Assembly: GCF_014640975.1 (NCBI RefSeq)
Contig: NZ_BMHO01000002.1
Coordinates: 1 to 64,000, forward strand
Length of the DNA: 64,000 bases
Origin: Microbacterium faecale
Lineage (GTDB): Bacteria; Actinomycetota; Actinomycetes; Actinomycetales; Microbacteriaceae
Reading direction: 5' to 3'
Of this stretch, positions 17,472 to 37,833 are shown piece after piece (position 1 is the stretch's first letter; every line of letters begins with the position of its first letter). A program made the translations under genes and the position numbers. A model generated the notes under the pieces. That model saw nothing but the letters and a program-made list of their open reading frames with translations, ran no database searches and was not told the origin of the DNA.

Positions 17472-18368
17472 TCAGAACTTCCCGGTCGACTTCTGCGCCG
17501 CGATCGCCTCGGTCATGGTCGACTCGTCGTCGGCGGCGGGGTCCGGCTCTTCGTCGTGCCTCTTCGGTGACCGTCGACTGCGTTTCTCTACGACATTCGC
17601 GAGCCACGACAGCAGCAGACACATCACGATGTAGATGCCGCCGATCACGAACGCCGCCTGCAGGATCGGACGCCCGAGCTCTGCCTGACTCGCGAGCAGC
17701 TTCACGTAGTAGAGGAGCTCGTGATACGTGATGATGAAGCCGAGCGCGGTGTCCTTCAGGGTCACGACGAGCTGGGCGATGATGACGGGAAGCATCGCGC
17801 GCACCGCCTGCGGCAGCAGGATGAGCGTCATCACGCCGCTCTTGCGCAGCCCGATCGCGTAGCCGGCTTCCTTCTGGCCGCGCGGGATCGCCTCGACACC
17901 CGCGCGCAACGCCTCGGCCAGCACGGACCCGTTGTACACCATCAGCGCGAGCACGACGGCCCAGTAGGGCGACATCGCGATGCCCAGCGTCGGAAGGCCG
18001 TAGTAGAGGATCATCATCATCACGAGCACGGGGACAGCTCGGAACCCCTCGGTGATGACTGTGGCCGGGATCCGGATCCAGGAATGATCGGAGAGGCGAC
18101 CGACCGCGAGCACGAAGCCGAGAGCGAGGCTCAGTACTCCCGCCAGCAGGAACGCGCGCAGCGTGCCCCACGCGTACTCGAGGATCGACATCCATACCGT
18201 GGTGTAGGAGAAGACCTCCCACTTGGCGGCCGTGAACTGGCCGGTCAGCGCGAGGCGCCAGCCGACGAACGCGACGACCGCGAGAACGACGACGATCGTC
18301 GCCGTGGCGAGGATGCCGTTGCGGCGGCGAGCTCGGGGCCCGGGCACATCGTAGAGAACGGACGTCAT
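17472..18368 (-). CDS. gluD: Glutamate/polar amino-acid ABC transporter permease (GluD-like)
   Basis: Membrane subunit of a polar amino-acid uptake system. 298 residues from ATG 18368, which overlaps the gluC stop as ATGA. About six hydrophobic helices. The coupling-loop signature for the ATPase lies around EALRAGVEAIPRGQKEAGYAIG. The C-terminal 50 residues are charged and extend past the last helix, as in corynebacterial GluD. Last gene of gluABCD. Substrate specificity is inferred from synteny and family resemblance. Confidence 0.88.
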   Translation of the reverse strand: MTSVLYDVPGPRARRRNGILATATIVVVLAVVAFVGWRLALTGQFTAAKWEVFSYTTVWMSILEYAWGTLRAFLLAGVLSLALGFVLAVGRLSDHSWIRIPATVITEGFRAVPVLVMMMILYYGLPTLGIAMSPYWAVVLALMVYNGSVLAEALRAGVEAIPRGQKEAGYAIGLRKSGVMTLILLPQAVRAMLPVIIAQLVVTLKDTALGFIITYHELLYYVKLLASQAELGRPILQAAFVIGGIYIVMCLLLSWLANVVEKRSRRSPKRHDEEPDPAADDESTMTEAIAAQKSTGKF

Positions 18369-19021
18369 CGTGCGATCCTCCATCGGTTCTCGAGCGTTCG
18401 CTGCAGCCAGGTGAGGAGCATCACCACGGCGATGAAGAACGCCGCCACCCAGAGCAGCACTTCCATCGGACTTCCCGGGCGCGTGTGTGAGTTCGAGATC
18501 GACGCCTGCAGCGCGGGGAGCACCGAGATCGAGAACCCGGCGGCGACGGTGGTGTTCTTCAGCAGGGCGATGAGCACGCTCATCATCGGCGGCACGACGG
18601 ACCGGAAGGCCTGCGGCAGGACGACGACGGACATGACCTGACCGAACGGCAGGCCGATCGCACGCGCTGCCTCGGCCTGACCGACGGGAACCGTGTTGAT
18701 CCCCGCGCGAAGCGTCTCGGCGACGTAGGTCGCGGTGTAGACGCCGATGGCGAGGGTTCCGAGCACCGTGTTCGACAGGGCCGGAAGCGCGAGGGCGCTA
18801 TAGCCGAAGATGAAGAAGAAGAAGACGAGCGTCAGCGGCGTATTCCGCACGAGGTTGACGTAGGCCCAACCCACCGCCCGAGCGATCGGTACCGGCGATA
18901 CGCGCATCGCCCCGACGATCGTGCCGAGCACGAGCGCGATGATGCCGCCGAACACGAACACCGCGATCGTGAAGGTGATCCCCTCGCGCCACAGGTCGAG
19001 GTTGCCGAAGATGGCGTCCAC
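18365..19021 (-). CDS. gluC: Glutamate/polar amino-acid ABC transporter permease (GluC-like)
   Basis: Second membrane subunit, 218 residues. The start is GTG 19021, with GAGAGGAAAC about 6 bp upstream; the longer upstream reading is out-of-frame gluB and intergenic DNA. The EAA-type loop is in AETLRAGINTVPVGQAEAARAIG. About five transmembrane segments. It is separated from gluB by a strong hairpin, so less permease than binding-protein mRNA is expected. It overlaps gluD by four bases. Confidence 0.88.
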   Translation of the reverse strand: MDAIFGNLDLWREGITFTIAVFVFGGIIALVLGTIVGAMRVSPVPIARAVGWAYVNLVRNTPLTLVFFFFIFGYSALALPALSNTVLGTLAIGVYTATYVAETLRAGINTVPVGQAEAARAIGLPFGQVMSVVVLPQAFRSVVPPMMSVLIALLKNTTVAAGFSISVLPALQASISNSHTRPGSPMEVLLWVAAFFIAVVMLLTWLQRTLENRWRIAR

Positions 19022-19082: not shown

Positions 19083-19979
19083 TCACTCGACCGCGTCGAC
19101 CGCCGGCTGGTCGATCTCGATGCCGGACTGACCGAGCGTCGCGTCGAAGATCTCCTGCCACGTGTCGCCACCATCGGTGAACATGGTGTTGATGAACTCC
19201 TGCAGCTCCGTGTCGCCCTTCGGGACGCCGACGCCGTAGCGCTCCTCGGTGAAGAGGCCGTCGAGCACCTTCAGGTTGTCCGGGTCCTGCGCGGCATAGC
19301 CGATGAGGATCGCCGCGTCGGTCGTGACCGCGTCGACCCTGTCGTTGAGCAGGTCCTCGACACACTACGAGTAGATGTCGTACTCCTCGGTGCTGACCTC
19401 AGGGAAGTTCTCCTTGATGTTCTGAATCGGCGTCGATCCCGTCGCCGAGCAGACGGTCATCCCGTTGAAGTCCGACACATCGTTGACCTCGGTCATCTCG
19501 CTGTCGCCGGCGACGAGGAAGCCCTGGCCCGTGACGAAGTACGGTCCGGCGAAGTCAATCTGCTCCTTGCGCTGGTCCGTGATCGAGTACGTGCCGACGT
19601 AATAGTCGATGTCGCCGTTCACGATCGCCTGCTCGCGGTTGGCCGACGCGATCGGCTCATACGAGATGTCGTCCTCGCTGAAGCCGAGCTCCGCGGCGAT
19701 CCAGCGTGCGATCTCGACATCGAATCCGCTGCGCTCGCCCGTCGTGGCGTCGAGGTATCCGAGGTTCGGCTGATCCTCCTTGACACCGATGACCGGTCCA
19801 CCGCGCTCGACCATCGCATCGTAGGTGGGGCTGCCTTCGAGAGCGACGTCCTCCGAGACCTCCTGCTCGGGGGCGTCATCTCCTGATCCGCCCGTCGGCG
19901 AGCCGCTGTTGCACGCCGTCAGCGCGAAGAGCGCGCCAGCCGCGATCCCGACAGCGGCCGCGTTACGGAACTTTCGCAT
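19083..19979 (-). pseudogene. gluB: Glutamate-binding lipoprotein gene interrupted by an in-frame amber codon
   Basis: The reading frame starts at ATG 19979 with GGAGGAAAAC upstream and a lipobox LTAC (Cys near residue 23), then encodes a family-3 solute-binding protein. Codon 205 (19365-19367) is TAG, after EEYDIYS. Without a frame change it continues for 93 more sense codons (CVEDLLNDRVDAVTTDAAIL...) to TGA at 19083. The total of 298 codons matches intact GluB. A single C-to-T change from CAG (Gln) would explain the TAG. The product would be a 204-residue truncated lipoprotein lacking part of lobe 1 and the C-terminus. A sequencing error or suppression cannot be excluded. Confidence 0.85.
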
Positions 19980-20044: not shown

Positions 20045-20785
20045 TCATTGCGTGAGCAGCTTCGAGAGGAAGTCTTTCGCGCGTGACGACTGCGGGTTGG
20101 TGAAGAAGTCTTCCGGCTTCGCCTGTTCGACGATCTCGCCATCGGCCATGAAGACCACGCGGTCGGCGGCCTTGCGAGCGAAGCCCATCTCGTGCGTGAC
20201 GACGACCATGGTCATGCCGTCGTGCGCGAGATCGACCATCACGTCAAGCACCTCGTTGATCATCTCGGGGTCGAGCGCGCTGGTCGGCTCGTCGAACAGC
20301 ATGATCTTGGGATGCATCGCCAGCGCGCGGGCGATCGCGACGCGCTGCTGCTGGCCACCCGACAGTTGAGCGGGGTACTTCTCGGCCTGATGCGCGATCC
20401 CGACGCGGTCGAGCAGGCGGCGCGCCTCCTTATCGGCGTCGGCCTTCTTCATCCCCTTGACCTTGATCGGTCCGAGAGTCACGTTCTCGAGGATCGTGAG
20501 GTGGCTGAAGAGGTTGAACGACTGGAACACCATGCCGACTTCAGCACGGAGCTTCGCGAGCTCCTTGCCCTCCGCGGGAAGTTCCTTGCCGTCGATCGCG
20601 ATGGACCCGCTCGTGATCGTCTCGAGGCGGTTGATCGTCCGACACAGCGTCGATTTACCGGATCCTGACGGCCCGATCACGATGACGACCTCACCCGGAT
20701 CGACGGTGAGGTTGATGTCCTTCAGCGCGTGGAAGTCACCGTAGTGCTTCTCGACATGGTCAATGACAACGAGCGGCTCTGCCAT
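20045..20785 (-). CDS. gluA: Glutamate/polar amino-acid ABC transporter ATP-binding protein
   Basis: ATPase of the importer, 246 residues. Walker [10 protein letters not shown] at 38-46, signature LSGGQQQR near 141-148, Walker [13 protein letters not shown], and the switch His in [12 protein letters not shown]. First gene of gluABCD, 65 bp ahead of gluB. TAGGCT 7 bp before the ATG points to a leaderless transcript for the whole operon. The ATPase and permeases look intact although gluB is interrupted. Confidence 0.95.
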
Positions 20786-35932: not shown

Positions 35933-36799
35933 TCAGGCCAGCGATACGGTGCCGGAGAAGACGAGCGTCGCCGGACCGGAGAGCGCGACGTGTTCGCCGC
36001 CGGCGCCCTGGAACATCCTCACCCCGAGCGTGCCGCCGGGCACCTCGACGCGCCATTGGTCCGGTGCACCGTCGCCCGCCCAACTGCGTACGGCGAGTGC
36101 GGCGGCGACCGTGCCCGTGCCACACGACAGCGTCTCGCCGACGCCACGTTCGAACACACGCATGCGGATCCGTCCGACGCCCGCCGTCACAAGCGGGTCC
36201 GAGGGCACCACGAACTCGACGTTCGCGCCGTTCGCGGGCACCGGATCGAGCTGCGGGATGACCGTGAGGTCGAGCTGATCCAGCTCCTCCTCGCTCGCGA
36301 GGGCCACGACCGTGTGGGGATTGCCGAGATCGATGTTCATGCCGGGCCGGGGAACGTCCAGCCCTCGGGCGCGCACGAGCGGATCCGCTCCGTCCGACGA
36401 CCAGGTGCCGAGGTCTGCCTCGAACCCGTCGCCGCTGCGGGTCACGAGTTTCACACCATCCCGGGTCCCAACCGCAAGGGCGGCGCCCTCGGCGAGCGTC
36501 GCGAGGCCCGTGTCGAGGAGGTAGCGGGCGAAGACCCGGACGCCGTTGCCGCACATCTCAGCGATCGACCCGTCCGCGTTGCGGTAGTCCATGAACCACT
36601 CGGCCTCTGGCGTCGCGGATCCGGCGCCGAGCGCACGCGAGCGGACGACCCGCAGGAACCCGTCACCGCCGATCCCGAAGCGCCGGTCGCACAGCGCGGC
36701 GACCTGATCGGCGGACAGGTCACGCTCGCCATCCGGGTCGGCGACGATGACGAAGTCGTTGCCGGTGCCGTGGCCTTTCGTGAACGCGATCTCGGGCAT
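35933..36799 (-). CDS. dapF: Diaminopimelate epimerase
   Basis: Interconverts LL- and meso-diaminopimelate for lysine and peptidoglycan. 288 residues, two-fold symmetric. The two catalytic cysteines are in [13 protein letters not shown] (near 88) and [14 protein letters not shown] (near 230); GNDFV and the substrate Asn residues are present. The start ATG 36799 is supported by homology and by TAGACT 7 bp upstream. It stands alone; dapA and dapB lie elsewhere in the window. Confidence 0.96.
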
Positions 36800-36806
36800 G
36801 CAGACG

Positions 36807-36812
36807 AGTCTA
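36807..36812 (-). promoter_or_regulatory. Putative -10 element for dapF
   Basis: TAGACT 7 bp upstream of the dapF ATG, predicting a leaderless mRNA. The facing ABC-transporter gene starts about 90 bp away on the other strand. Confidence 0.5.
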
Positions 36813-36900
36813 CGGTCCGATCTCGGGGTCGTCCCCCGGTACGACGAGCCGGCCCCGAGGATCATCCCGACCGCCGATGTGGCACCCCTGATGTCGGCGA

Positions 36901-37833
36901 ATGATGGAAGACATGATCACCGCACAGAACCTCACCAAGCGTTTCGGCGCGCACACCGCCGTCGACGACGTGTCCTTCACGATCAAGCCCGGGCAGGTCA
37001 CGGGCTTCCTCGGGCCGAACGGCGCCGGCAAGTCGACCACCATGCGCATGATCATGGGGCTCGACCGCCCGACGCACGGCTCCACCACCGTGAACGGCCG
37101 GCCGTTCGGCGAGCACACGGATCCCATGCGGCAGGCGGGTGCCCTGCTCGATGCGAAGGCCGCCCACCCCGGACGCCGCGCCGCCGACCACCTCCGCCTC
37201 CTCGCCGCCACGAACGGCATCGCCCGCTCGCGCGTCGACGACGTGCTGGAACTCACCGGCATCGCCTCCGTGGCGCGCCGCCGCATCGGCGGGTTCTCCC
37301 TCGGCATGCATCAGCGTCTCGGCATCGCGGCCACGATGCTGGGCGACCCCGAAGTACTGATCTTCGACGAACCCGTCAACGGCCTCGACCCCGAGGGCGT
37401 GCACTGGGTGCGCGGATTCGCGAAGGCACGCGCGGCGGAAGGTCGCACCGTCTTCATCTCGTCTCACCTCATGAGCGAGATGGCGCAGACTGCCGACCAC
37501 ATCATCGTCCTCGGCAAGGGCCGCGTGCTCGCCGACGCTCCGATCGCGCAGTTCCTCGGAGGCGCGGGCCAGGAGCGAACGCGCGTTCGAGTGTCGGACG
37601 CCACCGTGCTCGGCTCGATCTTGTCAGCCGATGGCGTCTCGATCACGCAGACGGACGCCGAGTCCCTCGAGATCGCCGGCCTGCCACCCGCCCACATCGC
37701 GCGACGCGCGGCGCTCGAGAACCTCGACCTGCACGAGCTGACGCCCCTCAACGCCTCGCTCGAGGAGGCGTACCTCGCTCTCACGGACGACGCCACCGAG
37801 TACCGCTCCGACCGCACGGCCGTTGCCGCGTAA
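36901..37833 (+). CDS. ABC exporter ATP-binding protein
   Basis: 310-residue ATPase of a DrrA/CcmA-like exporter. Walker [10 protein letters not shown] at 38-46, a degenerate signature [11 protein letters not shown] in place of LSGGQ (common in this group), Walker [16 protein letters not shown] and the switch His in ISSHLMSEM. The last about 90 residues are the family's C-terminal extension. Starts at 36901, 36904 or 36913 are all possible (the last is MITAQNL, where homology begins). Pairs with the permease 42 bp on and, by context, the two-component system that follows. Substrate unknown: drug, peptide or lipid. Confidence 0.9.

Follow-up and report, generated by a model that had tools for sequence, protein, structure and literature searches.

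An in-frame amber codon in the gluB-like lipoprotein gene of Microbacterium faecale, probably a recent nonsense substitution

In the 64,000-nucleotide stretch of Microbacterium faecale DNA that was analyzed here (the window), a gene for an amino-acid-binding lipoprotein is interrupted by a single in-frame amber codon. The question that is raised by this locus is whether the stop is a real mutation and, if so, what becomes of the importer to which the protein would belong. An open frame around a single stop is unable, by itself, to tell a young mutation from a base error. The initial annotation proposed recent loss of function, strain-level variation, an assembly error or readthrough as possible causes, and this was a sound list; the comparative data fit a single nonsense substitution followed by little or no decay. 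Our best explanation, to which we give a probability of about 0.6, is an isolated and recent nonsense substitution in one Microbacterium lineage or strain.

The interrupted gluB frame and its neighbors

gluB (19083..19979, minus strand) comprises 298 codons, the amber counted, and a final stop. The frame opens with an ATG at 19979 and runs through 204 sense codons to the TAG at 19367-19365 (19365..19367, minus strand), which is codon 205 when counted from MRKF, and continues for 93 sense codons to a TGA at 19085-19083. Re-reading the minus strand confirmed the earlier description of a frame that is open on either side of a single TAG, two-thirds of the way through. The part ahead of the amber (19368..19979, minus strand) encodes 204 residues. 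According to the general lipobox rule, a lipoprotein signal can be read by eye in it (...LTAC23NSG), the Cys23 of which is invariant across 28 aligned relatives. It also holds the N-terminal part of an SBP_bac_3 domain (PF00497; cut-off 26.4 bits), which scores 68.1 bits in the first 204 residues alone and 78.2 bits when the whole frame is read with the amber as X. The part beyond the amber (19086..19364, minus strand; 93 codons) is coding-like and conserved, and has no Pfam match when taken alone. With the stop at codon 205 the gene does not encode a complete two-lobe protein of about 300 residues. None of the NCBIfam models scored above its own cut-off against the binding protein; the name gluB is taken from the labels of relatives, and glutamate binding is putative.

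A codon model was trained on 38 long coding-like segments of the window and each stop was scored over 60 codons on either side. The gluB TAG ranked first among 1865 scored window stops for a two-sided coding signal (28.9 + 41.2 bits), while the runner-up (18.8 + 23.8 bits) terminates a long open segment. The GC content at third positions is 0.87 ahead of the amber and 0.95 beyond it. An open frame on both sides of this TAG is more than chance.

The neighboring genes follow an operon-like order on the minus strand: gluA (20045..20785; an ABC ATPase), gluB, gluC (18365..19021; a permease) and gluD (17472..18383; a permease). All three neighbors have open frames that score above cut-off for their Pfam families, in agreement with the earlier statement that the ATPase and both permeases are intact, and gluB is thus encoded together with an ATPase and two permeases. 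The gluC start at 19021, a likely GTG that lies 61 bases from the final stop of gluB, was chosen by us, and it fits relatives that align over residues 1-218 and 2-218. A scan for promoters and terminators between 17,300 and 20,900 found none, and shuffled sequences yield almost none too.

GluABCD is reportedly the glutamate ABC importer of Corynebacterium glutamicum, from work of Kronemeyer and colleagues in 1995 that is cited in PMC9769921. In both systems an ATPase, a family-3 binding lipoprotein and two permeases are encoded together, in a gene order that we take to be the same. They differ in that an amber interrupts the binding-protein gene here, and in that the glutamate specificity of the present system is putative.

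Relatives at codon 205 and the trace of selection

If proteins of this family normally ended at codon 205, no mutation would be needed. This check was run, and no such relative was found among the 120 database proteins listed (of 6146), which are all full length (294-323 amino acids), or among the DNA loci. We examined 140 gluB loci, two of which are the window's own gene; of the 138 others, some of which appear to be one genome reached through two collections, none carries a stop within the aligned gene. Of the loci of other genomes in which a stop had been flagged, those that fell within this set of 138 contain none in the aligned gene, and the flagged TAG of one genome (G347) lies outside the aligned residues 1-295. 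The premature stop is therefore absent from the intact relatives, as is expected of a nonsense pseudogene.

The residue at the codon-205 column is Ala in 66 and Gln in 54 of the 120 listed proteins. In the 138 loci it is Ala in 83, Gln in 38, Lys in 10, Glu and Thr in two each, and Asn, Gly and Leu in one each. The two closest relatives (P0002 and P0003, 94% identity) have Gln, and all 38 loci with Gln use CAG, so that the CAG-to-TAG change put forward in the initial annotation is compatible with these data. Across the wider family Ala and Gln occur about equally often, and the ancestral state is therefore indicated mainly by these closest relatives. The intact genes of P0002, P0003 and Microbacterium gubbeenense (85.5%) are of nearly equal length to the query, have the same lipobox region and share its conserved residues before and after codon 205; they differ from it in having a sense codon where the query has the amber. 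The protein database was clustered at 90%, so the P0002 cluster might conceal an intact sequence of this species, and the amber may vary between strains. A literature search that was not specific to this allele found, in the parts of the publications that it covered, no published work on it.

If the stop had been present for a long time, a decay of the sequence beyond it could be expected. At mature GluB columns that are at least 97% conserved, the query departs at 0 of 85 ahead of the stop and at 1 of 53 beyond it; 37 of 120 relatives equal or exceed this count beyond the stop. When the query branch is polarized by more distant relatives a single change is found, which lies beyond the stop. 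Ahead of the stop, 2 of 156 mature sites separate the query from both of its closest relatives, and beyond it 5 of 93 do, while the two relatives differ from each other at six and four sites, respectively. The identity of the query is lower beyond the stop than ahead of it against each of the 18 relatives listed. This faint excess of differences may reflect a slight relaxation of selection or simply the character of this region. There is no clear trace of decay beyond the stop. It follows that the stop is young, or not real, or without effect; the lack of a clear trace fits a very young mutation, and fits a base error or readthrough equally well.

Nonsense pseudogenes are a known kind in bacterial genomes generally, and gluB resembles them in its single in-frame stop and otherwise kept frame; it differs only in having had very little time for decay. 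The gluB amber is ordinary in kind; it involves no new mechanism and raises no new mechanistic question.

Decoding of the amber codon and quality of the assembly

The options in which full-length GluB, or both of its halves, would still be made depend on how the amber is decoded. RF1 is present (TIGR00019, 463.1 bits against a cut-off of 423.25), and TAG terminates 5 of the 38 long coding-like segments (a set that includes overlapping segments on opposite strands), as an ordinary stop does. All 46 Rfam tRNA matches of the genome lie within stretches scanned by ARAGORN, which called 45 of them; no CUA anticodon was found among the 46 (45 by ARAGORN, one weak match by eye). Reassignment or suppression of the amber was rejected in view of RF1, this tRNA survey and the ordinary use of TAG. 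It is unlikely, then, that misdecoding of the amber by a near-cognate tRNA-Gln is frequent enough to supply working full-length GluB, even though the part beyond the stop is still conserved, a tRNA-Gln with anticodon CUG is present and tRNA-Gln is reported to misread UAG in E. coli (PMC5289835). The signs of programmed readthrough are missing as well: the stop is shared by 0 of 138 other loci, no suppressor tRNA was found in the survey and RF1 is kept, and the 85 bases 3' of the stop fold like their shuffles (z -0.65), with no notable structure. The base after the amber is U. The same article reports low readthrough of UAG-U in yeast, whereas bacteria show a weak preference for +4U at UAG (PMC5289835), and on these grounds the context seems near neutral, from neutral to mildly against readthrough. 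We consider it slightly less probable still that the amber is read at a useful frequency which sets GluB to a reduced and tunable level under continued selection. The least credible option is that two halves of GluB are made separately and then assemble. The part beyond the stop does contain a short ORF that begins with GTG (19268, 61 amino acids), but this ORF lacks the first 32 codons of that part, which has no Pfam match, and a second half would need its own export signal, none of which is apparent by eye.

The serious rival, which we hold to be a real possibility though not the leading one, is a consensus-base error: the organism would have an intact gluB, and a single base of the assembly would be wrong. 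Over 12,001 bases the whole-genome copy is identical to the window; it comes from the same assembly, to which the TAG therefore belongs. To control for assembly damage, the ORFs in 60 kb of G108, a close relative, were compared with the window; 37 places were kept, which cover 36,662 of the 64,000 window bases and reach to about 40.7 kb. Stops were flagged at 7 of the 37 places: six are ORFs on the opposite strand or lie upstream of the real start, and the seventh is gluB. There were six partial matches and four with a second frame; among these, two second frames are gluC and gluD, similar permeases that match each other, and one match lies opposite real genes. Close examination was given to the second-frame match at 36,591-37,830, an apparent second broken gene that might have been a sign of poor assembly; it is explained by an ORF of the relative that is too long and overlaps a gene on the opposite strand. 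At the 37 places compared neither a second lesion nor a frameshift was recognized. The lack of a recognized second lesion, together with the lack of clear decay beyond the stop and the wide retention of the Glu system in the genus (a close GluB in 290 of 340 good Microbacterium genomes, the window's own counted), speaks for an error. Against it, the lesion is a lone substitution in an assembly of 3.12 Mb in only 4 contigs and 99.19% complete, contig 2 of which begins with the window, and no frameshift was recognized at the places compared; indels are a commoner consensus error than substitutions. We infer that the mutation is present in the cells, and not in the consensus alone, and that the truncated product is inactive.

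One further sequence came up in the tRNA survey. The weak match that ARAGORN did not call (30.3 bits; L161:200-269, G000:C1:2665549-2665618) repeats, by eye, part of the adjoining tRNA-Pro(GGG), including the anticodon loop, and is probably a degenerate partial copy of it.

Consequences for the importer and other uptake routes

The consequence of the truncation was examined on an AlphaFold2 model of the intact relative P0002 (94% identical; 28 sequences, pLDDT 83.3, pTM 0.80). Residue 205 lies within helix 203-211 of this model. The elements that are lost are the rest of this helix, strands 217-221, 236-240 and 246-253, and helices 222-231, 257-269 and 271-285. When the lobes are assigned according to the known two-lobe fold of the family, the model suggests that the truncated protein loses half of lobe 2 along with its return into lobe 1. 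Two conserved positions are also lost, the invariant Asp221 and Cys206, which is invariant in the 28 sequences together with Cys177 and could pair with it as a disulfide. Relatives of solved structure that were identified by sequence align through this point, namely 5eyf (residues 63-269) and the GlnH lipoprotein 6h1u (residues 58-279).

Under a real nonsense substitution, ribosomes would terminate at codon 205 through RF1, and the product would be a lipoprotein of 204 residues without half of lobe 2, the hinge return and the C-terminal helices. Such a GluB should be unable to close on its ligand, and the GluACD importer would therefore be left without a binding protein. If real, the allele is a clean natural loss of function of the binding protein in an importer that Microbacterium otherwise widely retains, and it would be useful for asking what role the importer has in that strain.

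The genome holds no close GluB paralogue, the best other match being 29% identical. It does encode an SDF-family symporter, which the DctA and GltP models both match below their own cut-offs, and elsewhere a GlnH-like protein adjoins a GlnP-like permease, with NCBIfam scores below cut-offs. These two systems could soften the loss of GluB, which may for this reason be tolerable. In C. glutamicum glutamate is stated to enter through GluABCD or GltS (PMC9769921); a GltS-family gene (PF03616) was not found in the genome.

Another question is whether loss of GluB with retention of the permeases is a pattern of the genus. A close GluB is missing at E 1e-90 in 59 of 366 genomes. The permease test, with G108 and G184 as positive controls, covered 18 of the 20 genomes listed among these 59, the other two (G067 and G130) having a completeness of less than 90. 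In 15 of the 18 good genomes only a diverged permease (43-47%) was found, and in three none at E 1e-30. No close permease without a close GluB occurred among the 18, and such a pattern was rejected. In two genomes (G049 and G051) the diverged permease adjoins a GluB-like gene of 41-42%, a pairing that suggests replacement or divergence of the whole system. Elsewhere in the M. faecale genome, a gene at L202:3906-4424 (G000:C1, about 2128405-2128923), which overlaps the start of a cation-efflux gene by four bases, encodes a protein of 172 residues with a partial SBP_bac_3 domain that may be a decayed binding protein.
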